Of a stretch of DNA of 64,000 bases, positions 3,424 to 59,439 are shown one piece after another. This DNA comes from Phymorhynchus buccinoides (Eukaryota > Mollusca > Gastropoda > Neogastropoda > Raphitomidae). Numbering within the stretch: position 1 is the first letter of the stretch; each line of letters begins with the position of its first letter. Location of the stretch: contig CM065699.1 of assembly GCA_017654935.2 (NCBI GenBank), positions 11,259,966 to 11,323,965 of the forward strand, read 5' to 3'. The notes beneath the pieces are model-generated. The model was not told the DNA's origin. It ran no database searches and saw nothing but the letters and a program-made list of their open reading frames with translations. The position numbers and the translations under genes are program-made.

Positions 3424-4365
3424 TTGTCTGAAGAAATAAAAAGCTATTGTAAAATGTTTGCAGATGATACGAAAATGTATAATATAACGAAAAATCACGA
3501 TGTATTACAAAAAGACTTAGATTCATTGGTTAGGTGGTCAGAAAATGTAAAAGCATGCATTTGGGAAAAAGTAATCCATGCAAAGACTACAAAATGCATA
3601 ACAATGGTGTGGAAAGCGTCATTATGAAATGCTCTGAGGAAAAAGACTTGGGAGTAATATTTTATGATAAACTGAAATTTGATGAACACATTCACAGTGC
3701 TGTAAGTAAAGCTAATCAGAAAATTGGTATAATTAAACGAACGTTTTCTTTCTTGGACAAGGACACTTTTCTATGCTTGTACAAAGGGTTAGTAAGACCT
3801 CATTTAGAATATGGAAATTGCATTTGGTATCCAGGTTTAAAGAGACAGTCAGCTTTGATAGAAAAAGTACAGAGACGAGCAACTAAGTTAGTACAAGGTC
3901 TTCAAAATGTTTCTTATTCTGACAGGTTGAAAGAACTAAATTTACCTACATTAAAGGCAAGGAGAATTAGGGGCGACCTAATTCAAACTTATAAAATATT
4001 AATAGTGTAGGTGACCTAAATGTACATGACTTATTCACAATATCAGATTATGACAAAACAAGGAAAATATTTATTCAATATTACAGGACTAATAATAGAA
4101 AATTTTATTTTACTAACAGAGTTGCACCTGTGTGGAATAAATTAACACCTAACATGAAAAGAGCACAAAATACTAACATTTTTAAAAACCTTCTCGACAA
4201 ATGGAATGACTATAAGGCAGTTATGTATAATTACGATGAATAATATTATCTAAAACTGAGTGTGCGACAGACCGAGACAAATAATTAAGCAAAATGAAAG
4301 ATGGGACAGGAAAGCCTTACGGCTATGTTTTGAGTCCCAAAATCCTAATCCTAATCCTAATCCTA
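3424..4365 (+). mobile_element. Non-LTR retrotransposon (LINE family 2) 3' fragment
   Basis: The start reads KMFADDTKMY, the intact YADD-type catalytic box of reverse transcriptase. After a frameshift near 3540-3600 it continues as EKDLGVIFYDKLKFDEHI, LVRPHLEYGNCIW and RRATKLVQGL, the usual thumb/C-terminal LINE text, to about 4010, then as broken frame to about 4240. The 3' end is an (AATCCT)n tail at about 4337-4362. A second copy of the family lies at 49770-50310. Truncated 5' and dead. Confidence 0.85.
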
Positions 4366-6209: not shown

Positions 6210-7575
6210 ACTGGGAGTTGAAGGGGAGGAGGATGGAGGGGGATTTAGATTCTTGAAGGCTTCCACCGTGGCTGATGAAACTGCCACCGGTGGAAGTGCG
6301 TTCACTCACACTCAGCAATGGTGCGAGGGAAGAAAGACTGCTGGCGGTACAGAGTCCTGCATGCCGGTAGCTGGTAAGACTCAGCATGCAGGGAGGTGTT
6401 GATCTTGTTGGGGGGTTGGGGGTTGGCTTCCTGGTGGAGTTGATCACCAACTCTCCACGATGGATCTTAAAGAAGTTGGTGAGGCGGGCCTTCCTTCTAC
6501 GATGGGAGAGTGGGGACCAGTTTAGCTGCTGCAGTGTTCCCCATGCTTCCAAATTTTTAAGGGTCATCATGACCCTTTGCCCCCAAATTTTAAGAGTCAT
6601 TTGAAAATTTTGGAGGGTCAAAATAAAAGCCATAATAAATGGACAATATGCTCTAAAATAAAGACAAATCTTGTAAACTTAAAACTTCAGAGTCTTTGGA
6701 AGAACTTCGGGTCGAAGTTTTCGCAATCCAGGGAAGCAGCGCCATCTTTTTGCTTCCAAGAAACATGCGGGCTAGGCTTGGCAGCAGTGCACGTGCAAGC
6801 AGCATGGGTGGTGAGAAACAAAGGGAAATTACTCTGTGGTTCATGATAGTTTTTGTCGTCTGCTTCAAGCATGGTAGAGCAGTGAAAGAATAGGCCCAGT
6901 ATATTTTGTTGATCGTTTCCCGCAAGCCGAAATGGCTTTGACATTCTGATCGCGGCGAACACGTTTGAGGAAGCAATCAGCTGAGAGAAAAACTGTACGT
7001 CACAATGACGTATTGACTGAAAAATGTATACGTCAAACTTGAAACTTTGTACATAATTTACGTACAGATCTGCGTAATCGGGAACACTGTGCTGATACAT
7101 AGTCTCCACGCTGGATGTGTTTCGATGGCGGTTGACCACCCAGCGTGCTGCCCTCCGTTGAACAGCTTCGATTTTGTTCACATTTTTGCTGGTGTAGGGG
7201 TCCCATATGCTGCAAGCGTATTCAAGTGATGGTCGTACGAGGGCGAAGAATGCTCTTTCCTTAGTCTTGATGCTCCAGACTTTCAGTGTTCGTCTTATGA
7301 AGCCGAGCGTCTTGTTGGCTTTGTTGATGATGTTAGTGATGTGGGAGTCCCAGCGCAGATATTTTGACATGGTGACTCCCAGATACTTTATCTCGTCAGC
7401 ATTGGACAAGGTGTGGCCATGAAGTTGGTATTGGCTCATGATGGTGTTTCTTTTCCTTGTGAAATGGATGGACTCACTGGCATTTGTCAGGGTGGAAATT
7501 CATGAGCCATTTTGACTCCCTGTCTGCAAGCTTGTCAAGGTCATGCTGGAGATCCTGTTGGTCAGTGGGAGTTGG
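6210..7575 (-). mobile_element. LINE (family 3) 3' fragment on minus strand, interrupted
   Basis: On the minus strand, 7560 down to 7090 encodes LINE RT C-terminal text: DKLADRESKWLMNF, then IKYLGVTMSKYLRWDSHI, LVRPSLEYACSIWDP and RRAARWVVNRH. It resumes at 6531 down to about 6210 with LQQLNWSPLSHRRRKARL and a C-terminal tail. The gap is occupied by a small DNA element (6532-7089). Related fragments lie at 51450-51660 and 51895-52085. Truncated and non-functional. Confidence 0.8.
6532..7089. mobile_element. hAT-like non-autonomous element inside a LINE
   Basis: Termini CAGTGTTCCC and GGGAACACTG form a perfect 10-bp inverted repeat. The flanks share TGCTG (6527-6531 and 7090-7094), a candidate target-site duplication. 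The element splits a LINE frame. CAGTG termini with the internal 'agggtcatcatgaccctttg' text resemble hAT-type MITEs. An 8-bp duplication would be expected for hAT and only 5 bp are clear, so the class is tentative. Confidence 0.65.
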
Positions 7576-8478: not shown

Positions 8479-8577
8479 ATGGGGAAGATTAGCAAGATTC
8501 TGATCTGTGGCCACACAGGTGTGGGTAAGAGTGCCATCATCGAACAACTGCTGTACGGGAACCATGTGGTGGAAAGT
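8479..8577 (+). CDS. NKIRAS: NKIRAS exon 1
   Basis: 33 codons, from [11 protein letters not shown] through the P-loop to NHVVES. Donor GTAAGA follows in phase 0. Confidence 0.92.
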
Positions 8578-8958
8578 GTAAGAACCCCCCCCCCCCCCCA
8601 TCTCTCTCTCTCTCTCTCTGCATGTTATAATTCTAGTAAATGCGCATGTCTGTAGCTTATGCTCCTATTATCTGATATTGTAAAATTGTCAATTGATTAC
8701 TTGTCTAACTATGATTTATGTGTGTGAAAGGAATTGTGAGAACGTTGATTTATATTTCATGTTGTCCTTGTTCTTTGGATTTGTTACATTTGATTGTTAC
8801 ATTGTTTACTTTTGAACCATTTGAGTTTGTTTTGTAATTTATTATTTATTTATTCACTTCATATGTCATTATTTTAGAGGACCTGATGAAAATAAATTGC
8901 TATTTCTGCTTACTCAGTTTATCCTCATTAAAAATTTCGAGTTCGAGTTCTCTCTCTC

Positions 8959-9055
<97 letters not shown>

Positions 9056-12000
9056 CTCTCTATCTCTGTCTCCTCTCTCTCTTTCTCTCTCTCTATCTGA
9101 TAGTGATAGTGGGGGACTGGCTCATATTGTCATAAGCCTAGTCCTCGTGGCCTCTCAAGAGCTCGCTCCCTCTCTCTCTAGCTACCTCTGCCATTCTTGG
9201 CATATCAGTTCAGATTCATTATTCTTATCATAATAAAAATAACAAGGCTACAAGTAACATGGAGTTTAATCACAATTGTTTTGTGATGAACATCATGAAG
9301 GGAGCATTGAGACTACCAGGTTTGAAAGAAAGCGGGGCTTACATGTATTATACTGTTTATTTGTACTTGTCATTTTGTATGTAAAATTGTTCACTTCGTT
9401 CATTGTCTCTGATTATGTTGTGTTTTCATCGTTGTCTTTTTGTGTTACATTTTGTTATAAATGAACTCTATATATGAATCCACAATGTGCTGTGCAGCCT
9501 AGTCATTCTACAATCGAAGACATCTACACCGCTGTGATAGAGACGGACAGAGGAGTGAAGGAGAAGGTGCGGATATTTGACACTGGAGCAGCTGCCATGG
9601 TGAGCTTAAGGGCTTCGTACACTAGCGTCAAATCTCGAGATTTTTTTGCTAAGGCGCAGTTTGATGCGCCGCTTGCGTGTGAGAGATTCGGCATTATGCG
9701 TAGCTGCGCGATTTTTTGTTCTCGAGAATAGCCCTCTAATTTTGATGCTCAAGATCGCAGAGATCGTGAAACTAGCCAATCACAACGGACGGAAGGACCA
9801 TAACTCTGATTGAAGAAAAAAAATGGCAGACTTGCTCGAACCCGAAATGTGTGCTGTGATGCAGGCGTCAGCACGTCAAGGTGTTGCTCTGAGAAACAAT
9901 TGATGCCTGATGCTAGTGTGCGAAGGCCTTTGCAATCAAACTAATTTTTTATATGCAGTAGTTTTCGGTTTGTTCCCGAGGCCCATGCGCCTGATAATAT
10001 GACAAATAAATAGCAAGAAAATATAATAACAAAATCTGATTTTTGTGTAATATTTGGGTGGTGCGCCTTATAATAAGGTGCGCCTCATAGTCCGTATAAT
10101 AATTAATATGGTAAATGATCAGTCCTTATGCTTAATAGTAGCAGTACAGCATGGTTTCTTTTATTCTAGAACATATCGTCGGTGAAATTAAAAAACCTTG
10201 TATCTCAATTTTGGTAGTTTTGAGAAAAATGAAAAAAAACTTAAAAAAATTAAACGCGTAGATCACAATTGATTAACTATGATGAATTATGTTGTTAAAG
10301 ACATTGCGAGTTTAGTCCTGCATTTTGTTAAAATTACTTCTTTTTTTTTTTAATACTTGAAAAGCATGAAGAAACGAGGTTTTTGTCCTTAACTCGTCCT
10401 AATTTGGGACTTACGAGGTTTTTTTCTATCTATTTACACAACCTCATTTACCCCAGATAGAAAGTCGTTAGAGATACGAGCTTTTGGTGGAAGGTGGTGG
10501 GAAAAATTAGAGAGCTGACTATGTATCTAACTAAAAACCCCCCAAAATCGAGATACAAGGTTTTTGAATTTCACCGACAACATTCAGTGCTACAGGCATG
10601 TGCAAGAAATGGCGTTTTGTTTTTGTCCAGGGTGTGGCTGTATGGGCCGCATCAGCCTGTCAGTTTCAATTTCCGTTTTTTTAAATCATGTGTTGTACTA
10701 AATACTACTACATGTAGTACTATCCTTTCATTTTTTTCAGTGATCATGCTAAGAATTTTTAAAACCGAATTCCATCAGCAACAAAGCCCCTCCAACGGCT
10801 GGTGTCGTTGTTGTTGTTCACTTACCCTGGCTAAAAGACTCCAGGGATCATCACAACAGCGGAAGCACTTGAACACTATGGTGCAAGTGCATCAGCTACA
10901 GATGAGAACAGTACGTGTGTGACCGTTTTTGATTACCCCGCCACGTGGGCAGCCACACTCCATCTTCGGGGGGAACAGCTGGTGTCAAAACCAGGGAAAC
11001 AAAAAAACAGTGAAAGCCACACTATCAAAACCTCTTTATCAGTCATAGTAAAAATGTATCAGTCCCTGGGACTGACTTGTCACTTCCTCTAATCTGTCAC
11101 TATTTTGGTTTTGCAATCAGTATTTTTACTGATAATTACTAGTTACGCGATCACTGTTTCAGTAAAAAGAATGATAGACTCACTTCGTTGACATGAATGA
11201 GCCAAAAAATCTGAAATTTATTAGGGAGAATGAGAGGTAGGGTGTTGAAAAGGAAAGGGTGGGGAAGAAGAAGAGAAAACCTGTTAAAACAATTTACAGA
11301 CTATAAGGCGATACTTTTTTCCCTGGGACTGACAGACCCCTGCGTTTTCATAATGTGTTTTGATAATCAGTATTAGTAAGATAAATAGAGTTACGCGAAA
11401 CTGTTTCAGTAAATTTTGTGATAGAAATTTGGGGAATGAGCCAAATAATCAGAAATTTATTGTAGAATGTAGGTGGAATGTTGAAAAGGAATTATTTGCT
11501 GAGTGACACTATTTTACTGACTATAAGTTTGTTGGCGATACTTTTTTCCTAGACTGACTCCCTGGATCATCCCAATGTGACTAATATTACAGTATGCGCA
11601 GCCACACTCCGAACTTTGGAAAATTTTGGAGACTGATGATGTTATAATAGATGAGCTTGTCATGGTATAATACGGAGTCGCCCCCCCGCTGTAACTATGG
11701 TCACTGGAGCAAACACAGCTAACTTTGATGGATGCCTTGGTGTGTCTAGACCCCCCACATTCCCAATTGGCTAGGAAGTTTTCTTAAGATTTCTTACCAG
11801 CCTTAAGCCAAGAAAACGTGTTCTTGACACGTTCTGTGGACAATGGTTGTTTACATGAGATGATTGTTTGGCTATTTTGTGTGTATTGTTTGTTTTGTTT
11901 CCATTTTTTCCCAGGAAGGTGCAGATGCAGATTTGCCCAAACACTACTTGAACTTTCCAGATGTAAGACTTTTTGGTTTTATTTTTGTGTTATGCTTGTA

Positions 12001-15000
12001 TGTGTCTGGCTTTAGTGTGTGTGTGTGCGTGTGCATGTGCATTTTGTGTAGCCTTGGTGTTCTAGCCGTGCAATTGGTCTGACACAGCCTTATGCCAATG
12101 CAATGTATATGATTGTTCTGTGGACAATGGTTGTTTACATGAGATGATTGTTTGCACTTGCTATTTATGTGTGTATTGTGTTGTTTTGTTTCCATTTTTT
12201 CCAAGGAAGGTGCACTTTGATGCAGATTTGCCCAAACACTACTTGAACTTTCCAGATGTAAGCACTTTTTGGTTTTATTTTTGTGTATATAAATCGATGT
12301 GTCTCTTTAGTGTGTGTGTGTGCGTGCCGTGTCTTTGCAAATGTGTATTTTAAAAGCGTATAAAATAATTTGTGTCTGTGTAATACAGACACTACAACAG
12401 ACACGACGAGTATGCACTTGCTTCTTTGTGCTATGAGTATAAGTAGGATACATAGTTTTGTTTTCCAATGTGATGTGTGTAAAAAGTTACAAAATGGTGC
12501 AGAGTAACATTCTAAAATACAGGCTGCTCTCCCTAGGAGAACGTTAGCCAAGGGCAGTGACTCATGATTGGAGTGGTTTTTTTAGACCGCGTGGGGCAAA
12601 CTAGGGTGATTTCGCGCTTGTGTAGGCATGTCTTGTATAACCTAGCTATCAATTTGGCCATACCAGGCAGCGGGATTCCTCCCTGCTCTTACCAACTTTC
12701 AACTGCCGTAGGATTTTTACGTACGTAAAGTGCACAGGTCAGACTAGCTTTAAGTCCCCATCCGAAGGACTGAACATTCAGTTCGATTTTCCTGTCAAAC
12801 TAGAAAGAAAGGACGAGGCCGGGATTCAAACCCAGGTCACTCACGCTGCAGTCATGCATTACATTTGGCAGGCGAACGTCTTAGGCACTCTGCCACATTT
12901 CTCCCTTAAAGATGATTTAGTAATGAAGTGTACATTTTGCAGGGGTTTGTGTTGGTCTATGATATCACCAACTGGGAATCGTTCCGACGCCTTGACAGAC
13001 TGAAGAAAGACATCGACAAGCACAGGGATAAACGAGAGGTATGGGTTAGAAACTCTGTGTGTGTCTGTGTGTGTGTGTGCATGTGTGAGTGAGTTAGTGC
13101 ATGGGAATGCATTTGAATGGGGGGGTGTGATTAGGGCTGTGTGTGTGTGTGTGTGAGGGAAGGTTTGTTTGTGTGAGAGACTCAAGACAACTTTATTATC
13201 TCATACACAAGAAATTACTTTAGAGGGAGAACTTGTGTGTGTCTGTGTATATTTGTGTGTGCTTATGTGTGTATCTGTCTGTCTGTCTACTTGTGTGTGC
13301 CTGCGAGCATAATGTATGTGTGTGTGTGTACGCGTGCATGTATGCTTCAGGTTTATAATGCTCATGTATGTGCATGTTTGTGCGTGTGTCTTCAGGTGCA
13401 CATGATCGTGCTGGGCAACAAGAGCGAACAGACAGAGAGGAGACAGGTTCAGTTTGACACTGCTCAAGCCTGGGCTGCAAAAGAAAAATGTACGTCTCTT
13501 TTCAGACGTTCTTTTGTGATGGTAAAGTGCACAGACCTTAATTTGAGACCAAGAAAAGGCACAATAGTGTCCAAATTTGTCTATACATCTGTGAAATGTC
13601 AGAGACCTTGTCTTTAACCAATTCTTGACCACAAATTCAATTTGAATTATTAGTACCTAAAAAAAATATTTCACAAAGGAAGAATGTTTTTCACACTTGT
13701 TTGTGTGTGTGCTGTGGTAATAGAATTCCATTTAAATGAAACATCTTGGTGCTAAAAACAACAACCCCAAAAAGTTTCTCTGTGTGTGTGTGCATGCTGT
13801 TTTATGTTGTTTTTGTGTGTGTATGTGTGCTGTTTCAACACGTGTGCTCCTTGTGTTTTATTGTGTGTTACTTTCATGCTAATGCTTCTCATTGTGGGTT
13901 TTATTGTGTGTTGTTTCGACGCAGTGCGCCACTGGGACGTGTCAGTTGCCAACAGAAAATCCTTGGTGGATCCGTTTGTGTGGATCACGTCCAAAATCAC
14001 CCAGCCCCCAAGTGAGTGCAGTGTTGTCTTTTGTATTGTTGCTTTATTTTACTGTCAAGGCATCAGAATTGTCAGAGGATTTGCAAATTTCAGAGGATTA
14101 CAAATTTCTGACAGGGTTGGCTTCTACTGTCAGAGGTTTAGCCTTTTCATTCTTCTTCTTCGATCGCTCAGTTTCCTGTCAATTATGAGCGCAGATGCGT
14201 CATGCTGCCGTTATGAGCCTAACTAAAAAATAATTAGGCCCAGCATGTCCGACTTCGGCTGGAGGAGTCTTTTTGAAAGCGTTTCTTGAAGAAAGGCAGG
14301 AGAATGGTCAGGAAAGGCAGAAAGATAGTAAATGACAAGTAAGCAAAGGGAAAAGGCAGAGTCAAAGAGAGTGACAGATTAGAGGAAGTTACAAGCACAT
14401 AACTTCCAGAAGGTGGGTGAACTATTTATGCAAAAGACCCCCCGGTATCCCCACGGGGGGAGTTTTGTCGTCTCACCCGAAAGACTTGGCATTCAGACCA
14501 TAAGGTCTAGTGGAGGTTGAGCAGAAAAATGTCTGCTGCGGCTGGAAGATGAACTTGGGTTTGTTGTTAACGAGGCAAACGTATTAGTTCAGAGCCACCC
14601 CACTACTTTACTTCTGCTGAGGAAATTATGATTTGGTCTTCTATCTGTTTGCCTCTGCCTTTCTGACAGCAAGGAACACTGGATAAAAGATATGATCAGA
14701 ATAGGGGAATTCAATACAAATTTGTTGGAGGGGTCGATTTGTCAAATGTTGGATTTCATTTGGAATGTCATTTGGGTACAAGAATTGCTTCTTCTTTTTC
14801 TTCTTTGCGGTACATAGCCACAATCAATGCTTTGATTATTTCACCACAGAACCGGGGAGGGTTCTAGACCACTTTGTTTGGTTATTTAGGTTACTTTGAA
14901 GCATTTAAAATTTTTTTAAAGCTGCTAACAGATTTTAATAAAAATTTAGCTTTCAGTTTGGCTGTAAACTAGCAGTAAAGTGTGGTCGTTGATGTTTGTA

Positions 15001-15237
15001 AGCAACAATCTGTAACTGTTGTGCCCCTTTCCTTGCCTATGCTGTGTTCCTCCTTCTTTTCATTTTTTTCCTATATTCAAGTACGTTTCCGTTTTGTAAA
15101 TCGCTCTATGTAGGTTTACGGAAGTAACCGAAATTTTAACATGTTGTGTTGTACTGCCATGTGTTTCAGGCAAAACCAACTTTTTACCGGGGAGGAAGAC
15201 CAAATCTGCCAGCAGCAACAATTTGGACACCAGCTAA
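8479..15237 (+). CDS. NKIRAS: NF-kappaB inhibitor-interacting Ras-like protein (kappaB-Ras), complete, 7 coding exons
   Basis: Atypical small GTPase of 197 aa; the human relatives are 191-192 aa. In vertebrates the family binds IkappaB and Ral regulators and dampens NF-kappaB and Ral signalling in the cytoplasm; a similar role here is inferred. Exons: 8479-8577, 9498-9599, 11915-11962, 12943-13038, 13396-13489, 13925-14011, 15170-15237. All have AG/GT borders and phases 0,0,0,0,1,1 that join. Seen: P-loop GHTGVGKS (residues 11-18), SIEDIY-like effector region [14 protein letters not shown] (37-50), LGNKSE (121-126) and [10 protein letters not shown] near the G5 position. Oddities shared with kappaB-Ras rather than Ras: the DTAGQ box is DTGAAAM (61-67), so the catalytic Gln is absent; NKxD reads NKSE; there is no C-terminal CaaX box. 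The start is the first ATG before the P-loop and gives the family's MGK beginning. A broken duplicate of exon 3 lies in intron 3. Confidence 0.93.
8590..9100 (+). repeat. (TC)n microsatellites in NKIRAS intron 1
   Basis: A poly-C/(TC) run at about 8587-8619 and a longer (TC)n tract at 8949-9100 sit in intron 1. Serine/leucine-rich frames across the latter are artefacts of the dinucleotide repeat. Confidence 0.9.
9498..9599 (+). CDS. NKIRAS: NKIRAS exon 2
   Basis: 34 codons (residues 34-67) covering switch I and the degenerate switch II start DTGAAAM. Acceptor GTGCAG, donor GTGAGC, phase 0. Confidence 0.92.
10176..10580. mobile_element. MITE with ~35-bp terminal inverted repeats (GTCGGTGAAATT family)
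   Basis: The left end TCGTCGGTGAAATT...AACCTTGTATCTC is mirrored by the right end ...GAGATACAAGG...AATTTCACCGACAA, about 405 bp in all. A reversed, truncated relative lies at 32985-33305 in GPT intron 5. It has no coding capacity and lies in NKIRAS intron 2. Confidence 0.7.
10790..10980 (+). repeat. Dispersed repeat shared with GPT intron 9
   Basis: The segment with 'taccctggctaaaagactcc' and 'tgattaccccgccacgtggg' is closely repeated at 38815-38957; a weak trace lies at 11540-11620. Class unknown. Confidence 0.65.
11108..11555 (+). repeat. Diverged tandem duplication, about 230 bp x 2
   Basis: Two successive blocks (about 11108-11335 and 11343-11555) share the order 'cagtattTT', 'gttacgcga', 'ctgtttcagtaaa', 'aatgagccaaa', 'gaaatttatt', 'gttgaaaagga' and end with a 'gactataag' phrase. 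That end motif also occurs in the 54-bp array at 21942-22757. Confidence 0.6.
11915..11962 (+). CDS. NKIRAS: NKIRAS exon 3
   Basis: A short exon of 16 codons ([16 protein letters not shown], residues 68-83). It has a polypyrimidine acceptor TTTTTTCCCAG and donor GTAAGA, phase 0. It matches the '..GAELPRH..' part of the family. Confidence 0.9.
12113..12345 (+). pseudogene. Decayed tandem duplicate of NKIRAS exon 3 and its flanks
   Basis: About 230 bp repeat 11830-12045 nearly base for base: 'ctgtggacaatggttgttta', the polypyrimidine tract, the exon and the donor. The exon copy (about 12207-12258) has a 4-nt insertion (CTTT) after GAAGGTGCA, which creates an in-frame TGA. The acceptor is altered from CCCAG to CCAAG. 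It cannot replace exon 3 in frame, so it is called a pseudo-exon. Confidence 0.85.
12630..12898 (-). mobile_element. tRNA-derived SINE (minus strand), type 2
   Basis: Read on the minus strand it begins GTGGCAGAGTGCCTAAGACG (A-box-like) and has GGGTTTGAATCCC (B-box-like) about 50 bp later, followed by a non-tRNA body with 'ccttcggatggggacttaaa'. This order of pol III boxes then an unrelated body is characteristic of tRNA-derived SINEs. It ends 45 bp before NKIRAS exon 4. Confidence 0.75.
12943..13038 (+). CDS. NKIRAS: NKIRAS exon 4
   Basis: 32 codons (residues 84-115), beginning [14 protein letters not shown], the beta-4 strand region of the G domain. Acceptor TTTGCAG, donor GTATGG, phase 0. 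Confidence 0.92.
13396..13489 (+). CDS. NKIRAS: NKIRAS exon 5
   Basis: 94 nt encoding [16 protein letters not shown]...AAKEK. It holds the modified G4 box NKSE. Donor GTACGT, phase 1. Confidence 0.92.
13925..14011 (+). CDS. NKIRAS: NKIRAS exon 6
   Basis: 87 nt encoding [18 protein letters not shown] and a helix ending TQPP. It matches the EVSVADRRSL region of the family. Acceptor GACGCAG, donor GTGAGT, phase 1. Confidence 0.92.
14150..14462 (+). mobile_element. Dispersed repeat family A copy
   Basis: It shares the order 'gatcgctcag', 'tgagcgcagatgcgtcatgc', 'ttaggccCAGCATGTccgac', 'aaaaggcagagtcaaagaga', 'cttccagaaggtggg' and 'ccccccggtatccccac' with copies at 16640-16860 (reverse), 33860-34192 and 34193-34440. 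It has no coding frame and the class is unknown. Confidence 0.7.
14465..14606 (-). mobile_element. Degenerate tRNA-derived SINE head (type 1)
   Basis: This resembles the head of the SINE at 31295-31730: 'tcgtctcacccgaaagactt', 'cagaccataaggtctagtg' and a degraded box region. It is fused to family A at its left, so some family A copies may be SINE composites. Confidence 0.55.
15170..15237 (+). CDS. NKIRAS: NKIRAS exon 7 (terminal)
   Basis: Completes the split Ser codon and encodes [22 protein letters not shown] and a TAA at 15235-15237. The basic, Ser-rich tail parallels the human C-terminus; no prenylation cysteine is present. Acceptor TGTTTCAG. Confidence 0.88.
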
Positions 15238-15774
15238 GGCTCCCAGAGATCAATGGAGAGCGGAGATTTCTCCGATGATTTGTCTTTTTTTGGGGGTTGT
15301 TTTTTTTGGGTTGGTTGGTATGAACACATTTTGTGGCTCTTCGGTCTCATGTGGAAATCCAAGAACAACTAGAGTAGAAAGGGGGGTTGCGCACCCCTTA
15401 AGGCATTATCGTAATATGACGTCAATTTGTGGATCTCCAGTTCGATATTAGAAAAGATTTAGATCACCAGCGTCTGTTAAAATGTTTCTGCTTCCACTGT
15501 ATCAATGCTCTGCTTTGTAACTGAAACCGTTTTGTAGAAGCAAACGGATTTCTGAAGACTGTGACAAATTGGTCATTGCGTACCGGTACGGGTCAGTGCG
15601 CACCCTACATACGGGTGTTGCATTTTTATCTATGTACACTTATATGTAACCATAGCAACTTTCACCCCACACAAAGTGAGGAAGGAAACCTTAACGTATA
15701 GTGAGTAGATTTAGATTTTAACTTCTAATTCCATGAAAGTTTGTTTCTTTCGTTTAAAAATGGAATCTGGAAGA

Positions 15775-15780
15775 AATAAA
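15775..15780 (+). terminator. Possible polyadenylation signal of NKIRAS
   Basis: The first AATAAA downstream of the stop codon, 538 bp after it. No cleavage site can be confirmed from sequence. Confidence 0.4.
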
Positions 15781-15885
15781 CGTCCTTGTATTAAATCACG
15801 CAATCATGACGCGATTTCTTTACAATCTATACGATTTTAAGGGGGGGTACACACTCACCCAGCCAATGCATAGACTCGCACATAC

Positions 15886-15940
15886 TCTAAATAATTGTTG
15901 GCGCACGGAGTTCTAAATAATTGTTGGCGCACGGAGAACG
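15886..15940 (+). repeat. 25-bp direct duplication
   Basis: 'ctaaataattgttggcgcac' plus 'ggag' occurs twice in immediate succession. Confidence 0.8.
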
Positions 15941-16097
15941 CGATTACGTCTTTCTATTCTAGTTTTGTTTGTTTGTTGTTTAGATGTTTTTTGTAATCTT
16001 TTGTTTGTTTGTTTCTGTCCTTTGTTGTTGTTTATTTTTATGTATTGAAGCATGGTGCAATATGTATTGATTGAATCATTTGTAGACTTGTTGTATA

Positions 16098-16293
16098 TAC
16101 AGTGGAACCTCCATTATAAGACCTCCCATTATAAGACTCCCTCCCACATAAGACCTACTTCTCTGAGACATTGGCCTTCTTTTTAAGTGTTAAAATTACC
16201 TCCCTTATAAGACCCCTCCCTTATAAGACCCCTCCCTTATAAGACTTCATTTGGGATGATTTTTGAAGGTCTTATAAGGGAGGTTCCACTGTA
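16098..16293. mobile_element. TA-flanked MITE (CAGTGGAACCTCC family), copy 1
   Basis: 196 bp, bounded by TA-CAGTGGAACCTCC and GGAGGTTCCACTG-TA. The interior is built of repeated CTTATAAGACC/GGTCTTATAAG palindromic pieces and 'tctctgagacattg'. TA target duplication and CAGT termini fit a Tc1/mariner-type non-autonomous element. Other copies are at 21615, 30361, 30710 and 37844. Confidence 0.85.
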
Positions 16294-16599
16294 TTGTTTT
16301 GCCTAACCATACAAACATGTTCATACTTATGCATGCGCTCACTCACACGCGTATGTGCATATTCATATGTACATACACCCACATATAACAGACGGCCTTC
16401 TCTTTCACTCACAAAAATGTGATTTTGTCATAACGAAATTTACTTGTGCATCCACCTTTTTTCCTGTTGTGTATCTATGTCAGTTGCAAACTATGACGTG
16501 TTAACATTTTCTCGGCAACATTAAGCCACTGCACAGTCACACTAGCTGAATGTTGTTAGTGATTGTCAAATTGTGTATCCAGGCATGGGGCCGTGGGTG

Positions 16600-16980
16600 G
16601 ATGCCTTGTGCCTCCATATGGGGAGCTGGACGACCCCGCCTCCTCCACGAGTCTCTCCCCATGGGGATACCGGGGGGTCTTTCATAAAAATAGTTCCCCC
16701 ACCTTCTGGAAGTTCTGTGCTTGTAACTTCCTCTAATCTGCCACTCTCTTTGTCTCTGCCTTTTCCCTTAGCTTTCTATCATCTACTATCTTTCTGACTT
16801 ATTGGCCCATTCTCCTGCCTTTAAAAAAATCTTCCAAGTTTTCTCCTTTGAGCTCCTCCGAAATCAGAATGTGTCGGCTGTACGCAACGGGGAGACCAGT
16901 GAAAGCTGATAAACGGACACATATGTACCTTACCCATTATGGCCATATGGCCTAGGAACGCAGAAGAAGAAGAAGAAGAA
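16600..16980 (-). mobile_element. Family A repeat, reverse copy, with (GAA)n tail
   Basis: The reverse complement of family A text runs from 'ccccatggggataccggggg' through 'cttctggaagttctgtgctt' to 'ctcctgcctttaaaaaaatc'. It is followed by 'ggccatatggcctaggaacg' and (GAA)6-like repeats. The latter may be the tail of an adjoining retroposon. Confidence 0.65.
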
Positions 16981-18903
16981 GAAGTATCCAACCATATGTT
17001 TGAGAGTTCAGGAACTATGAACAGTTTAAACCAGCAGATAGTTTTGTGTTTTTTAAATTTGTTTTCTTCGCAAGATAATATTTTCATTTTGTTGACAGTT
17101 GCTGTCAGTTTGCAATGTTTGCTTTATGCACTTAGAAAAGGTTGACACTTTTTAATATTATATCTCAAACATAACATTTTGAATCTTTTTTTTATCAGAA
17201 CAACCAAGTACACATCCTTGATGACTTCTTTTAGGTCATTTTGTGAGCTTGTTTTCTTCAAGTGCTAGAGCAACAAAACTTTGATGGTTGATGCAGTCTT
17301 CAAGTCATATCAATGTTAGCTCACGGTAAGAGAGTATCAAAACCTTCTGGCATAATATTTCTTCCTCGCGTTAGAACAAACAGTGTTGGGGGCAACTGCA
17401 ATGAACAGGCACTCGGGGTGATCTCGAGTATTAGAAGGGAAATAAAAACAGAACAAAGCGATTGATATTATATTGATTGTAAACTGTGTGTACACATTTG
17501 TCCATTTGCTTTCGTGAATGGGTTTTTTTTCTGTTTGGTTTACCAAAAGAATTGGTCATAGGGTTGGTTTGACTAAGTATGTTGTAAGAAACTTTCGGTA
17601 TATTTTTTTATATTTAGATAGTAAGGCAGATTGTGTCTGTATTTCTTATAATTAACCTTTAACCCGAGTCTATGAAGTATGATATTTTATGAAGCATTAC
17701 AATAACCTGGTCCCCAAATCCTGATGTGTGGCTAAGGCTCAGCGCACACATCGGAAATTCGGTTATAGTTGACCACCAACATTGATATTGGATCATTCAC
17801 GGAAAAGGTCGATTTTCTATGTTGGGCAATACCCTGTCTAAGTTACCTGGTGTTGCGCCAATCAGATTTGAACAACTAAAGTGCAGTCAATTCCCTTGAC
17901 TTCTCCAAAGTGACTTCCCTTTAAGTTAATGTAACAAGCTGCACATGCATACAGAAAGGTGAAAGGTTGAGGTACTAAAAATACTCACTTCTACATATGT
18001 CTTATGTCCACATGTGTGGACAAAGTGGATGGACATACAGGTGAGAAAGCTTGACACACTGTTGCCGCTACTGTCGTGTGCGCCGGGCCTGAATGTTGTC
18101 GTTGTTTGGAGGTGGGTGGAACAGAAAGTGCAGTTTTTTTGTCTCACATCTGTGGCTGCTGACAGTTGTTGCTGTGGTTTGCGATGCACATTGCGGAGGA
18201 GGCTTGGAAAGCATCAAGGTCCTTCTCAAGTTTTTGCAGTTGTGCTGTCCAACTATCGGAGGCTGACGTTTGCATTCTGCAGGTGGTGGGTAGGACCTCT
18301 ATTCCGTCTCTCGGCCATTTGGTCAGGGGCGGGTTGGAGGGGTTGTGGGTGATGTATGGAATACATAAGGCAGTGTTGGGTTTGTTTTGAACTATAAAAC
18401 TTCACTTCTTGGGATTACTTTGAGTTTGTTGATGGTCCTGTAGACAAGGGCTTTGGGGGAAATGATGTCAATTTGTACACTTTGGTTGGTGTAGTCGTAC
18501 AAAGTACAGGCATTTTTATTCACTGTGATTTCTGTGTGAACAACTTTTTTGTAATACGTGTAAATCTTGCAGTTTGTTTTTATGCAGTTTATATCTGTTT
18601 TATATGTGTAAAGCAGTGTGTGCATTATATTCTAGTCAACCAATATCTTATTCGAATGCAGTTTGTATGAGAATACTATCTTGGGTAGTCTATTGAAACT
18701 TTGCAACATACTATCACCACACAAAACAACATAATGCTGAATTACTTTTTCGTTATTTATTCCTATAAAATAAATCCTACTACTTGTATTCTGATACTGT
18801 ATATAAGAAAATTACAAGGGAGAAAAACCCTTGACATTAATACCTATCAAGGTACCGTTTTGACTTTTTCTGTGCTTTTTTTGTCCTTATTGTGTGTGTC
18901 TGT
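16981..18903. other. Intergenic AT-rich DNA
   Basis: No gene or known repeat is recognised. Short frames here have no recognisable family and no splice context. Confidence 0.45.
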
Positions 18904-19605
18904 TTAAAGGGAACATTAAGTCCAAAGACGAGTCAGCCTTAAATTAATGTTTATGCGCAATAAACAATCACTGTACATTTATTTCTATTCAAGTCTTTCA
19001 AATAAAAATAAATAAACTTTAAAGTGCAGAAATGTCGGCCCCAAGGGCGTCGCCATGTTGCCACTGTTAAGAGTAGATGCCCCCTGAATATGATGTCACA
19101 CACTCAGTTTACCTACTATGACTAGTGCTTGGGCAGCAAGCCTAAAAGGGACATGCATAGCATGCATGTGCACGCGTGCGTGCATGTGTGTGTTTGTGTA
19201 TGTGTGTGAATCAGGTCAGAGAGAGAAAGAGAGAGTGTCTGTGTGTTCTTTGTTGACTGAGATTAGCACCAGACTCAAGTGAATTAATTAAGAGGTTCTC
19301 ATCCTCCCTTCCTTCTTGTCTTTAGCTGCTCAGTGTGTAGCAGGTCAGTGTTGTTTTAGTTGAATGAAGTAACTTTGTTCTGGTTTTATCTTAATAGACT
19401 ATGAGAAGTCTACAGGAAACTGAGTCTGTGACATCACAAACTAGCACAAAATGGTGGCCTCCATAAACCTTCAATCTGGCACTTTCCAATGGCGTTTTTA
19501 CGCTGATCTTAACTAAAATCGAATTTTTATTTGCAGATACAAGCTTATTTACATATTATCTTGCAATAGAGATCAGTTTCTATTTGGAGTTTATGTCCCC
19601 TTTAA
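18904..19605. mobile_element. TTAA-bounded element (AGGGGACAT termini)
   Basis: TTAA-AGGGAACATTAAGTCC at the left is mirrored by GGAGTTTATGTCCCCT-TTAA at the right. The interior includes 'gatgtcacacactcagttt' and its partial inverse 'aaactgagtctgtgacatca', so pairing extends inward. About 702 bp, non-coding. Short imperfect ends make the boundaries tentative. Confidence 0.55.
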
Positions 19606-21614
19606 TATAACAACTGTCATATTGTGGGGTACATCACAGACAAAGCCTGTAAAGTAATTTGAGCACTTTGTGCCGTTTTCTTTATTACCTACAATCAAAG
19701 ACACTGAAAAGAAAAGACTAACATCCGATCCCTTTTCCATATATGAGTAGTGAGGACAGAAACACTGGTTATGTCCCTTTTAAACATGACACATTTAGGT
19801 TAAAAACACGTCGATAGGCCAGTTGAATTCTCCGTTCAAATTCCAATCTGAGTCTTTGAATAGCCGCCACTGTGAATGGGTGTAACTACCCCACTAACGA
19901 TAACTCTATCAGCCTGGCTCGCCGTAACTCTTAAGTAGTCCATCTTACCCTTTTAGAGTCTTTGCTACAATACAGGGCGTGAAATATATACAGCCAAAGT
20001 TTTTGTAATAAATTCTCTTTTATTGTGAAATATTCATGACAGTGTCAGAAAAACAAACTTAAGTTGCACATTATATTGAGCTAAAAAAAATAAAACAATA
20101 AAAAGTCACTAAAATCTAAAATTTCTGATTAAGGCCTATACAGTTTTTACACATTCTACACTCATCTAACAACTGCTTTTATTTGCCATAAAGCGCTTGC
20201 CACAAACACTGGAACATGATTCATGCCCTTGATGACATCACAATCTGCTATATTTCTGTTTTATCATTGAAGTCCTTACAGCTGTAGAGTGAGATTGCTC
20301 ATATGTAGTATTGCTCTGCTTTGGTATGGAACTGCATGAACTGAGTGCATGCATGCCAGCATTTTTCTTTTTTTTACCTTATAGATTTTGTTTTCAGGAG
20401 TGAATCCATTTTTTTGAGTCAACAAAGGACTTATCCTTAAAATGAAGTGAAGGGTTTTACTATCTCCCCCATTTAGACTTGTACACAGGAAGTCCATTTA
20501 GTGAGATAAAAATCACTTTTTTTTGAAAGTTTGTCATTTGTGTGTGCGCTTGTGACCATCAGTATTATTAGAAATGTGTGTCTAGCATGTTTGCATGATT
20601 TTTTCTTTGTTAGTTATGCTAACAATTTTGCATATATTAAGTTAAACAGTATTTTGTTTTTAAGACTAGCTAAAGAACAGCAGGTGCTGAAAGTAAATCG
20701 GTTCTATTGTAACCATTTTCTTGATGTAATGGAATATGCTATTTCTGTTTGTTGTTTGCACATGATTTAATTGAAATTGTTCATTAAACATTTTGGTGTT
20801 CATTATATTTTCGTCTTTGTTTGCTTCTTGTATGTGTGCTTATAAATGCAGATATATAGGAAACTGAATTCTGTATTTTGGAATTGGATCTTCAGAATGT
20901 ACCACACACACACACACACACACACACATGAAAAAACCCACAAGCTCTAATCTTCTTATGATTTCAAGCTCAATGGGATTATGAGTAAAGATACAACCCA
21001 TCAAATTGTTTCCAGTTGAAACTGCTTCTTTACAAAAAGGATGCAAATTTTGTTTGAAAGTGTTGGTGACTGTGCTGGAGAAAACATTACATAAAATGCT
21101 GCTGCACAGTGCAGTTTTGAGAAAAGGAGAAGTAAACAGTCCTAAGATTATGACATTTCTGTGTCACTCAGGCACATTTATAATGTATTCTACAACATCG
21201 AAAATATTAACTTCAAGATTTGAAAAACAAAAACAAAACACCAAGATTTGAATGGTGTATTATTGTTTAAAATATGGGAACATTTAGAACATTTTTGTTG
21301 TATTGTGTTTTCTGCAGAATGGTGTATCAAACTTCAAATGGATACAATATCAAAATTAGCAATAATATTCTAATTCGGTCTTCTGCATATCTGTCGGGAA
21401 TGTTAGTTGAATCATAAAAAAGTAAAACTTTAAATTTGACCCAAGATCAGGTTTTCTCATGAACTGTCGCATTTTTTCTGACATTTTCATCAAGCGTTGT
21501 AAACCATTTCTCAATTTCATCACACACAAAACACCAGAAACATTTAATTTCTTTCCACATGGAAACATATGTGTAAATAATATCAATATGTTTGAACAAA
21601 CCAGTACATTGCAT
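19606..21614. other. Intergenic AT-rich DNA
   Basis: No supported gene. A (CA)n microsatellite lies at about 20904-20929. The rest is unassigned. Confidence 0.45.
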
Positions 21615-21774
21615 TACAGTGGAACCTCCCTTATAAGACCTTCAAAAATAATCCAAAATGAGGTCTTATAAGGGAGGGGTCTTAAAGGGAGGTAATTTTA
21701 ATACTTACAAAGAAGGGCAATGTCTCAGAAAAGTAGGTCTTATATGGAATGGAGTCTTATAAGGGAGGTTCCTA
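21615..21774. mobile_element. TA-flanked MITE, copy 2, right end damaged
   Basis: Begins TACAGTGGAACCTCCCTTAT and follows the family order in reverse orientation to 30710-30883. The right terminus stops at GGAGGTTCCT without the final ACTGTA. Confidence 0.8.
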
Positions 21775-21941
21775 ATAAATGGCGCCCATTCATTTTGACA
21801 TCTTTTAGATTGCAACAAAGGGATACTGAATTGTTTGAAGCTGTCTCAAATCTTACCCCTCAAATATCAACTTTTACGCATACAGCGATGTATTGTTTAT
21901 GCTTCAATTTTTGTGCTAGTCTATATATTTCTGTATTTTTC

Positions 21942-22757
21942 GGACTATAAGGCGATACTTTTCCCCCAGACTGAGACCCCATGTACCTTATAATATGACT
22001 ATAAGGCGATACTTTTCCCCCAGACTGAGACCCCATGTGCCTTATTTATGACTATAAGGCGATGCTTTTCCCCCAGACTGAGACCCCATGTGCCTTATAA
22101 TATGACTATAAGGCGATGCTTTTCCCCCAGACTGAGACCCCATGTGCCTTATAATATGACTATAAGGCGATGCTTTTCCCCCAGACTGAGACCCCATGTG
22201 CCTTATAATATGACTATAAGGCGATGCTTTTTCCCCCAGACTGAGACCCCATGTACCTTATAATATGACTATAAGGCGATGCTTTTCCCCCAGACTGAGA
22301 CCCCATGTGCCTTATAATATGGGACTATAAGGCGATGCTTTTCCCCCAGACTGAGACCCCATGTACCTTATAATATGACTATAAGGCGATGCTTTTCCCC
22401 CAGACTGAGACCCCATGACCTTATAATATGACTATAAGGCGATGCTTTTCCCCCAGACTGAGACCCCACACACCTTATAATATGACTATAAGGCGATGCT
22501 TTTCCCCCAGACTGAGACCCCATGTGCCTTATAATATGACTATAAGGCGATGCTTTTCCCCCAGACTGAGACCCCATGTGCCTTATAATATGACTATAAG
22601 GCGATGACTTTTCCCCCAGACTGAGACCCCATGTGCCTTTATAATATGACTATAAGGCGATGCTTTTCCCCCAGACTGAGACCCCATGTACCTTATAATA
22701 TGACTATAAGGCTATGCTTTTCCCCCAGACTGAGACCCCATGTGCCTTATAATATGA
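21942..22757 (+). repeat. 54-bp tandem array, about 15 units
   Basis: The unit begins TGACTATAAGGCGATGC, runs through a TCCCCCAGACTGAGACCCCA core and ends GTGCCTTATAATA. Single-base and short indel variants occur. Each unit starts ACTATAAGGC and ends GCCTTATAAT, so every monomer has its own inverted ends. The unit is preceded by ATTTTTCGGACTATAAGG, the terminus of a dispersed MITE also seen at 37830, 57591 and 58350. Open frames across it are artefacts because 54 is divisible by 3. Confidence 0.92.
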
Positions 22758-23585
22758 CCACTAAAATAGTAAGAAACCAGTATTTTGCCTCCATACATGG
22801 CATCGTTAGATATGCTACATGTCATGTCATTTTTTTAAATTTGCCTCCTTTAAACACATTAGAGCCTGGCGTTTGGCACAATTAGTAAAGCATACCAGTA
22901 AATGATCTATCAATAACAAAATGTATTCAGTTAATATACAGATTTAAAGGAATAAAACACAGATGCCTTAGTAGTCATCAGTGAATGAAGCCAAACCAAA
23001 TAAAAATCAAAAACATATTTAGAGGGCAAAAGGCTAAACAAAATAGCCTGTAGTGCCATTTATGCTATGCTATGCTATGCTAATACAGTCAGCGACAGCT
23101 TGTTCTTCATGGGTTTAGATATGCTACATGTCATGTCATTTTTTTAAAATCAGCTCGTACTATGGCCTATGCAAACATTGGATATTTTTGTTTATTTTTT
23201 GACATGCATACATACATGTAAATACAAATACCTAGGCCGTCGTAAATTGCACACCATAAAATTCCTGAGATCCTGGCCTACTGCATTTGTCGGTTTGATG
23301 ATTTCCTACATTCCGAATCTGTGGCACTGGGCCAACGAGCACTGTCGCCAAGGTCAACAACCTTCAACTCCAGTGACCTCACTGCAAATGGCTGACTTGC
23401 CCTCTTGCTATCAGTAAATACGATACACGTAACCTTTAGGTGTTTGTGACGGCCGCATAAACAGCATCTGAAGGTGACACTACGCTTTAAAAAAAACAAC
23501 CTTGTGTCGTAGTTGTGACTGCCAGCTGACAACAGTCGCGTACCCAGTCGGACTTTAACGTAATTGGAAGAAGAAGAAAAAGAAC
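22758..23585. other. Upstream region of the GPT gene
   Basis: Contains a LINE family 1 tail remnant at 23015-23085 ('agagggcaaaaggct' then GCTATGCTATGC), and two copies of 'gttagatatgctacatgtca' (about 22806 and 23115). The final 200 bp probably hold the promoter and 5' UTR; no core motif is certain. Confidence 0.45.
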
Positions 23586-42779
<19,194 letters not shown>

Positions 42780-48816: not shown

Positions 48817-49769
48817 CACTCTACTTCTAGATGTTTTGGTCCTCTGCTAGGCTAATGCATATTCATGAGGCTCTCAAGGGTTGTGCGCGTCGCACGCTCA
48901 GTGAAAAGGGGGAGGGGGGCAACTTCAAGGGGGACTATATATATATATCTCCATCTGAATCTGAATCTGAACAACAAAGCACCAAACAGGCATTAACAAA
49001 AAGAGACAGGGTCCCTATTATGCTACTTTTTGTTTTTACTTAGGTTTTTTCTTGCCTATATTAATGTTGCCCTGATTCGGCCCATACTTGTGGGAGCCTA
49101 GTCGAGAGGGCTAACAGTTCTTTTAAAACTAAGTTTAGGGACCTTCACTCTATAAACATTAAACTTCTTTTGTATTTGAAGAAATAACAAAATTCACCCG
49201 TAAACATCAACAAACAGATATAGTATAAGATTTTAAATATAATAATGCTTTTAGCATACTAACAGTCGGATTTTAAAACTTTTAACCTTTTTTGGTAAAT
49301 AAAAGAAAACTTTGTATATATTGTAATATCTAATGACCTTTTTTGAGTTTTAAACATTTGTTGAGTTTTAAAAAAAAAGTGGTCCTGGAAATGTTAATAA
49401 GATTGCTCAGCCAGCAAGGAAGGCGTTTTTTAAACAAACATTTTAAATCAAATATTATATTTATCGCAGTCCTGGTGCGGGCCATGGCAATAAGGTTTTT
49501 GACCTTAAATCAAAAACAAAATAATATGAATCTGAAAGTTTTAGATAATATAGAACTATATAAATAAAATTATAACTTTATTAAAACAATTTTTTTTTAA
49601 AAATAACTTTATTAAAGCAAAACTTTTTCCCCTTCTTCTAACTAAAAATTAATAGTAATGTCCCATATGGCTTAGGCCGGGAGGACGTAAAACAAACTTT
49701 TCTTCTTCATCTGAATCTGACTGGTAACGCTGAGCTATCCAACTGGATCATTATACCGGATCATCATAT
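48021..49769. other. Microsatellite-rich and AT-rich intergenic DNA
   Basis: GA-rich tracts lie at 48140-48500 and 48783-48812. CTGAAT/TCTGAA-type retroposon tails lie near 48950-48970. No gene recognised. Confidence 0.5.
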
Positions 49770-50315
49770 CTTAAGAGACAATCATTACCAATTGAGAAAG
49801 TTCAAAGGAGAGCAACAAAATTAGTAAAATGTTGTAAAGATTTAACGTACAGTGATAGATTAAAGCTGTTGAACTTACATTCACTAAAGGGTAGGCGGAT
49901 AAGAGGTGACCTCATTCAAATGTACAACATTTTTCACAACTTAGTTGATATCAGTTTTGAATCTCTCTTCTCACCATCCTTGTCTGACACAACTAGAAAC
50001 CAAGAGGGGAAAGTACAAGTTCAACGGTTTAATACTAACAAACGAAAGCATTGTTTTAGTAACAGAGTTGCTAACTCCTGGAACTCACTGCCACCTGATC
50101 TAAAAAATGCACCATCTACTAACGCCTTCAAAAATCTACTTGACAAAAATGAAAATTTTAGTGAAATGTTTTATAATTATGATGATTGATATTGCAATCA
50201 TAGTTTGATTGTTTTTGCATGTAAATGCAACTTTATTAGAGAAAATATTCTGGATGGGACATATTATAAGCCGCGAGGCTTAGGCAGAAGCCAGTCCCTC
50301 TACTACTACTACTAC
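49770..50315 (+). mobile_element. LINE family 2 3' fragment, second copy
   Basis: The frame reads IEKVQRRATKLVKCCKDL, LNLHSLKGRRIRGDLIQMY, NRVANSWNSLPPDLKNA, close to 3860-4240. The 3' UTR has 'gatgggacatattataagcc' and a (CTA)n tail at about 50299-50315. Confidence 0.85.
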
Positions 50316-50990: not shown

Positions 50991-58691
<7,701 letters not shown>

Positions 58692-59060: not shown

Positions 59061-59305
59061 ACCTTGTTAAAAAGTTCAGTTGGAAGGCGAAGTAGGATGT
59101 GAAATGAGTACCTTGTTAAAAAGTTCAGTTGGAAGGCGAAGTAGGATGTGAAATGAGTACCTTGTTAAAAAGTTCAGTTGGAAGGCGAAGTAGGATGTGA
59201 AATGAGTACCTTGTTAAAAAGTTCAGTTGGAAGGCGAAGTAGGATGTGAAATGAGTACCTTGTTAAAAAGTTCAGTTGGAAGGCGAAGTAGGATGTGAAA
59301 TGAGT
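59061..59305 (+). repeat. 49-bp tandem array, five identical units
   Basis: Starts at 59061, 59110, 59159, 59208 and 59257. The unit begins ACCTTGTTAAAAAGTTCAGT and ends GATGTGAAATGAGT. No differences were seen between units. A C-run and (CA) follow. Confidence 0.95.
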
Positions 59306-59439
59306 ACTTAGCCCCCCCCCCCCCCCCCCACACACAAAAAAACTTCTGACGTTAGCTGCTGAAAATCCGGGTGGAAGGATTTCTCGGCTGAAAAAATCTC
59401 AATCTACTTTAACCATACTGTACCAACACCTGAAACAAC

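Follow-up and report, generated by a model that had tools for sequence, protein, structure and literature searches.

Why do the edges of exons reappear, as short and often diverged copies, in the introns beside them? The question is raised by a stretch of 64,000 nucleotides from the neogastropod Phymorhynchus buccinoides (NCBI GenBank assembly GCA_017654935.2, contig CM065699.1, positions 11,259,966 to 11,323,965), here called the window in its full length. It contains a gene that we take to be kappaB-Ras (NKIRAS) and a gene for alanine aminotransferase (ALT/GPT), with nineteen exons between them. A first-pass annotation described six of these exons as having "echoes", that is, local tandem copies of one exon edge together with its splice site. 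The echoes are best read, with a probability of roughly 0.8, as "mirages": minisatellites founded by a local tandem duplication that straddles one splice junction.

Exon echoes in the NKIRAS-like and ALT genes

The echoes are not needed to reconstruct the two genes: all 19 exons have canonical AG/GT sites, and their frames stay open (Table 1). An automatic duplication search of the window (40-mers matching at 30 or more of 40 positions, at a lag of 26-2000 bases) flags exactly six of them, NKIRAS exon 3 and ALT exons 2, 6, 8, 10 and 11; their number is the one first noticed, and both gene models close. Evidence for the individual echoes comes from self-comparison by blastn, Tandem Repeats Finder (TRF) and a lag scan. 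Both kinds of boundary are duplicated, with acceptor echoes at ALT exons 2 and 11 and donor echoes at ALT exons 6, 8 and 10. Clear arrays accompany ALT exons 2, 8 and 11, and diverged copies accompany ALT exons 6 and 10. The description of a copy as one exon edge plus its splice site holds for these five ALT exons; it does not hold for NKIRAS exon 3, which is duplicated entire and is therefore not a one-edge echo. In the second copy of that exon, AAG replaces CAG at the acceptor and four added bases shift the frame; the closed NKIRAS-like frame uses copy 1.

The copies at ALT exon 2 extend over 31 nt of the exon, after which they go on as AAGTAATTACTC. The motif GATGTGATCA recurs at 28173, 28311, 28484 and 28619, the true one lying at 28754. 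The two echoes nearest the exon have an intact AG and the whole start of the exon, and the other two are damaged there. At 28463-28630, the two better echoes are followed by AAA and then GTAATT, which would make a potential in-frame mini-exon of 33 nt.

The donor array of ALT exon 8 begins with the exon itself: unit 1 holds the exon end, with similarity from about 36364 to 36424, and the later units, about nine copies of 59-63 bp, occupy 37269-37807. Several copies have lost four bases of the donor. An insertion of 844 bp separates unit 1 from the rest. Once the flanks are rejoined over it and one TGTAC is removed, they match the array unit at 45/45 positions at 37322, 37385 and 37448; the edge of exon 8 was therefore once unit 1 of a contiguous array. 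Some echoes, such as these, now lie away from their exon because the inserted element splits the array.

The diverged echoes require a comparison with chance. Both copies at ALT exon 6 and both at ALT exon 10 (Table 1) exceed the best of 300 shuffles, which reaches 25/40 for the former and 34/65 for the latter, and the copies are therefore genuine, though diverged. A third, shorter echo of exon 10, near 41612, was spotted by eye only.

The same pattern in myosin loci

Myosin genes of the same 2.12-Gb assembly provide a second sample, chosen through Pfam Myosin_head matches before that DNA was examined for echoes. The sample comprises 20 stretches of 10 kb (200 kb, 12 loci); Pfam Aldedh matches at 13 places in the assembly stayed outside it. 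Fifty exons were curated from a search with exon translations, the longest copy being taken as the exon; their borders are predicted from a splice score for which the window served as training set, and the 82 of 100 that score at least 4 were kept. The translation search reveals many partial exon copies in these stretches. For example, the 3' end of one exon (L033, 9242-9524) is copied five times, another exon (L034, 3826-4021) has three copies on each side, and a third (L043, 2003-2294) has four upstream.

At an equal threshold and a lag of at most 1 kb, echoed edges are found at 20/50 myosin exons and 5/19 window exons (25/69 together), so the pattern recurs beyond the two genes. Both edges are echoed in 4/69 exons, and in 0/69 does a whole exon lie inside one duplicated segment; NKIRAS exon 3 falls outside this last count, its whole copy being broken by an indel. 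Edge echoes look common in the snail genome, not peculiar to the window. Local duplication is itself dense: with the same limit on lag it covers 25% of the 200 kb of myosin DNA, 31-39% within 1 kb of myosin exon hits and 20% at 1.5-2.5 kb from them; of the window, with the two genes set aside, it covers 5.5%. A comparison of all open reading frames between stretches was dropped, as it is dominated by dispersed repeats.

Tandem arrays are known traps for genome assembly, and the echoes could in principle be artefacts of that kind. However, many copies differ by 5-30% and carry indels, a transposon with its target duplication interrupts one array, and the pattern recurs on many contigs, which makes an assembly artefact extremely improbable.

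Splice signals within the copies

At 24 of 116 borders, four of which lie in the window, the 52-mer centred on the junction has one or more copies; this count and those of retention omit borders of 60% or more low complexity, and copies were selected on their match as a whole. The 47 donor copies retain the G in 83% of cases and the T in 94%, and the 13 acceptor copies retain the AG in 100%. The array has the functional edge of the exon as its terminal unit, the copies found sit in the adjoining intron, and most keep GT/AG. The repeat unit thus spans the exon-intron boundary, and AG/GT is present in many, though not all, of the copies.

Such retention could mean that the echoes serve as functional decoys or spare splice sites under selection, the more so as the ALT exon 2 echoes lead in frame to the donor-like GTAATT. 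However, retention of GT/AG is close to that of nearby positions, as expected of passive copies. In addition, the second copy of NKIRAS exon 3 is frame-shifted, and the four donor bases are missing from several copies of ALT exon 8. Selection for such a role is accordingly rated very improbable.

Are exon borders favoured?

The first-pass annotation had also claimed that echoes straddle borders far more often than expected of random duplications. In the window, rotation of the exon map inside the genes agrees weakly, with a mean of 2.4-4.0 exons expected and 3-7 observed (P 0.02-0.6 over 20 settings). Border 40-mers disagree. In the window, 5/34 have a copy (3/29 once low complexity is set aside), compared with 11.2% of intron 40-mers, and in a first look at myosin (29/30 three-kb loci) 4/23 scored borders have one, against 32% of intron 40-mers. 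The excess of border over intronic 40-mers by which the annotation proposed to judge its own claim is thus found neither in the window nor in the myosin loci, and by that measure the claim falls. Counts of straddled borders are similar: local duplications straddle 17/82 myosin borders, against 25.9 at positions jittered by 0.1-1.5 kb, and 4/34 window borders, against 3.8. Real exons score 16/34 and pseudo-exons 16.0/34, with no overall excess; for those exons whose centre is free of copies, the same test gives an edge rate of 0.25-0.30 against 0.14-0.19, a weak excess (P 0.02-0.25). The window by itself is insufficient to carry a claim of border excess.

These results fit a reading without any preference, in which random intronic duplication is dense and similarity stays detectable for longer where one of the copies is a conserved exon. 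By these counts, copies are no more frequent at borders than in nearby intron. However, position-based counts are blind to copy number, because one array yields many positive intron positions and an exon edge is counted once. Tests on array families take a different unit. A circular shift over 10 kb (18/100 families against 8.7, P 0.001) was replaced by local shifts, because the clustering of arrays near exons makes it too liberal. With local shifts, 25/100 array families contact exons in the myosin loci, against 15.5 expected (P 0.007), and 6/19 do so in the window, against 3.3 expected (P 0.10).

The founding-unit test collapses each array, excludes low-complexity and dispersed repeats, and removes exon-derived families from the control; 102 of the 116 borders are usable, with a bootstrap over the 12 myosin loci and the window. 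Founding units lie on 16/102 borders, against an intron rate of 0.035, a 4.4-fold excess (95% interval 2.3-7.4, P 6e-7), with 6/51 acceptors and 10/51 donors straddled as founders. At 90% identity the excess stays (11/102, 4.9-fold). Base composition was rejected as its cause, the GC-matched expectation being 4.4 against 16 observed. An earlier version of the test (4.5-fold) is superseded because it lumped composite families. When the intron side is detected with exons masked, 9/102 borders remain, a 2.5-fold excess (1.2-4.5, P 0.01). Across masked settings the ratio is 2.5-2.7 (lower bounds 1.0-1.2, P 0.01-0.03) with exon-derived families out of the control, and 1.6-1.9 (95% lower bounds 0.8-1.0, P 0.03-0.12) with exon-derived copies kept in it.

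The drop on masking is what the reading without preference predicts, and the excess that persists at high identity and after masking (P 0.01-0.03) speaks against it; on balance it has about an even chance of being right. Age bias from conserved exons explains the founding excess only in part. The other possibility, put forward here tentatively, is that tandem duplications are born preferentially at exon borders, through chromatin, transcription or recombination, so that the borders are true hotspots and not bystanders. The founding excess, whether whole or exon-masked, its persistence at 90% identity, its independence of GC content and the contacts of array families with exons above local shifts all point this way. 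The position-based tests show no excess, and the masked ratio of 1.6-1.9 has lower bounds that reach below one. Furthermore, the founding-unit test is post hoc, having been devised after the position-based test failed, and covers few loci (the 12 of myosin and the window); the myosin borders are predicted, exons are older than the intron positions compared with them, and the masking of dispersed repeats is limited to what 264 kb can reveal. Taken together, a modest border preference is likely and a strong one unproven.

How echoes may arise and persist

As a mirage, an echo would begin when a short segment (about 50-200 bp) across one splice junction is duplicated locally and in tandem, and the array would then grow by slippage or unequal exchange. 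Under exon definition, the spliceosome would disregard edges that have no partner site. An orphan edge, with no partner splice site at exon distance, would be ignored on this principle; duplication of one border would therefore just lengthen the intron and be nearly neutral. Duplication inside an exon or across a whole exon would not be neutral. Later transposon insertions can push copies away from the exon. Duplications of this kind are frequent in the genes of this genome; borders take part in them, probably acting as founders somewhat more often than intron positions.

The proteins of relatives bear on this scheme. Echo-coded residues are absent from the ALT proteins of six relatives (P0002, from Littorina, and P0003-P0007). 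The proposal that a duplication is tolerated since one site still works is the best part of the earlier interpretation. An internal-repeat scan over the best 120 of 7,993 ALT relatives flags six proteins, of which the ALT prediction of Nucella lapillus (P0001) is the one examined. At about residues 288-347, a 12-residue piece of the exon 8 edge recurs in it, and between the repeats lie 36 residues that resemble a translated, itself repetitive, intron. This prediction is probably a mirage annotated as exon in a second snail.

Several points weigh against reading the snail echoes as spliced-out mirages. Their removal by splicing is inferred from closed frames and relatives' proteins, and some echoes may be used, as the potential mini-exon at ALT exon 2 suggests. 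The background rates, moreover, come from the myosin stretches and the window.

Mirages in amphioxus and related duplications

Canestro 2002 is said to be the founding mirage paper. The pattern, for which the first-pass annotation knew of no named process, already has a name: "mirages" is used in amphioxus for tandem repeats across exon-intron boundaries in Adh3, globin and troponin C genes, according to two papers (PMC3087553, PMC3902484). In these papers, mirages occur at both boundaries, vary in copy number, splice regularly and are proposed as a source of new introns. The units of the globin genes BflGb6 and BflGb9 measure about 150-160 bp, with 81-100% identity in one array, and RT-PCR (reverse transcription PCR) shows regular splicing of the globins that carry them; the units of Adh3 are 10-72 bp, and repeats of 60 and 108 bp in PGBD5 are likened to mirages (PMC3087553, PMC3902484). 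The snail echoes share the three anatomical features: a unit that spans the boundary, occurrence at both boundaries, and AG/GT mostly kept. They differ from the amphioxus reports in coming from a mollusc, not a cephalochordate, and in being given with a rate over 69 exons and a founding-unit test. Regular mRNA is reported for amphioxus, and length polymorphism between haplotypes and somatic instability for its Adh3, whereas the snail is known from the DNA of one assembly. Among the top matches, out of many, in open-licence papers, no report of mirages outside amphioxus, molluscs included, was found.

Other duplications resemble the echoes in part. Intron gain in potato RdRp (PMC4974935) likewise involves a local tandem duplication with splice signals, but there the upstream intron-exon structure is copied and a new intron results, whereas in the snail existing introns lengthen. 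The Rogers form of intron gain, in which a wholly exonic segment with AGGT is duplicated, does not apply, as the snail units that were counted straddle an existing junction. Ordinary intronic minisatellites have similar unit sizes and are plentiful in the same introns; the echo unit adds coding sequence and a splice junction. NKIRAS exon 3 is like the familiar tandem exon duplication, whereas the other cases in the window copy one edge, without the exon's second splice site.

Gene models and other features of the window

The ALT protein is 83% identical to that of Littorina saxatilis and 78% to one from Nucella lapillus (best 120 of 7,993 relatives), and its relatives include proteins annotated as alanine aminotransferase, e.g., in Littorina saxatilis. 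The reading frame of NKIRAS-like exon 5 has a weak Pfam Ras match, under the curated cut-off.

Table 1. Genes, exons, echoes and inserted elements of the window
Feature	Position	Strand	Evidence or remarks
NKIRAS (kappaB-Ras)-like gene	8479..15237	+	7 coding exons, canonical sites, frame closes
NKIRAS-like exons 1-4	8479-8577, 9498-9599, 11915-11962, 12943-13038	+	
NKIRAS-like exons 5-7	13396-13489, 13925-14011, 15170-15237	+	
NKIRAS exon 3, whole-exon duplication	11831-12031 and 12115-12326	+	blastn 90%
Alanine aminotransferase (ALT/GPT) gene	23586..42779	+	12 exons, canonical sites, complete 510-aa frame
ALT exons 1-4	23586-23792, 28733-28822, 30596-30704, 31804-31934	+	
ALT exons 5-8	32840-32956, 33706-33835, 35014-35093, 36262-36395	+	
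ALT exons 9-12	38562-38736, 39542-39697, 41949-42061, 42689-42779	+	
ALT exon 2 acceptor echoes, about four copies, array of about 135 bp	28126..28732	+	TRF, blastn
ALT exon 6 donor echoes, two	34444-34483 (27/40), 34861-34900 (30/40)	+	several hundred bases downstream of exon
ALT exon 8 donor array	36396..37807	+	TRF, blastn, families
Insertion, 844 bp, 14-bp exact inverted ends, TGTAC target duplication	36425..37268	.	between exon 8 unit 1 and later units
ALT exon 10 donor echoes, two	40059-40123 (40/65), 40207-40271 (43/65)	+	
TTAA-flanked element, 471 bp, 12-bp exact inverted ends	41137..41607	.	intron 10, ALT exon 10 echo region
ALT exon 11 acceptor echoes, 98-bp unit, two copies before true exon	41761..41948	+	TRF, blastn

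A dispersed element with CTTATAAGGGAGG inverted repeats is present at 16091-16290, 30361-30540, 30711-30880 and 37850-38095. Plain minisatellites lie outside both genes at 21943-22758 (54-bp unit, 15 copies) and 59061-59307 (49-bp unit, 5 copies, 100% identical). Open-frame fragments at 637-2045, 3534-4010, 6687-7499 (minus strand), 49734-50189 and 52882-53736 (minus strand) are presumably pieces of non-LTR (non-long-terminal-repeat) reverse transcriptases, which they resemble in a motif. A possible coding exon of another gene is seen at 56363-56716 (QRLREEREQKRAQLDSRHHYIIRVVADFCGLEKNEVEDSLLEGNQ).

What the echoes may mean for introns and annotation

Echoes at 25/69 snail exons stand against the single lancelet genes described in the two reports (PMC3087553, PMC3902484). 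Repeats that flank introns mislead spliced aligners, as the description of EASTR states (PMC10632439), and mirages may account for some faulty gene models, such as the ALT prediction of Nucella lapillus. A bolder proposal, on the whole doubtful, is that borders are the preferred birthplaces of minisatellites, that edge arrays have arisen from about one exon in three, and that introns grow to a substantial extent outward from exon edges. If true, it would leave rows of orphan splice sites for gene finders and RNA-seq aligners to see through; and should the edges prove to be true hotspots, minisatellite birth would become testable at known positions. The echoes suggest that this way of lengthening introns is widespread and that it offers raw material, close at hand, for new splice sites, exons and introns.
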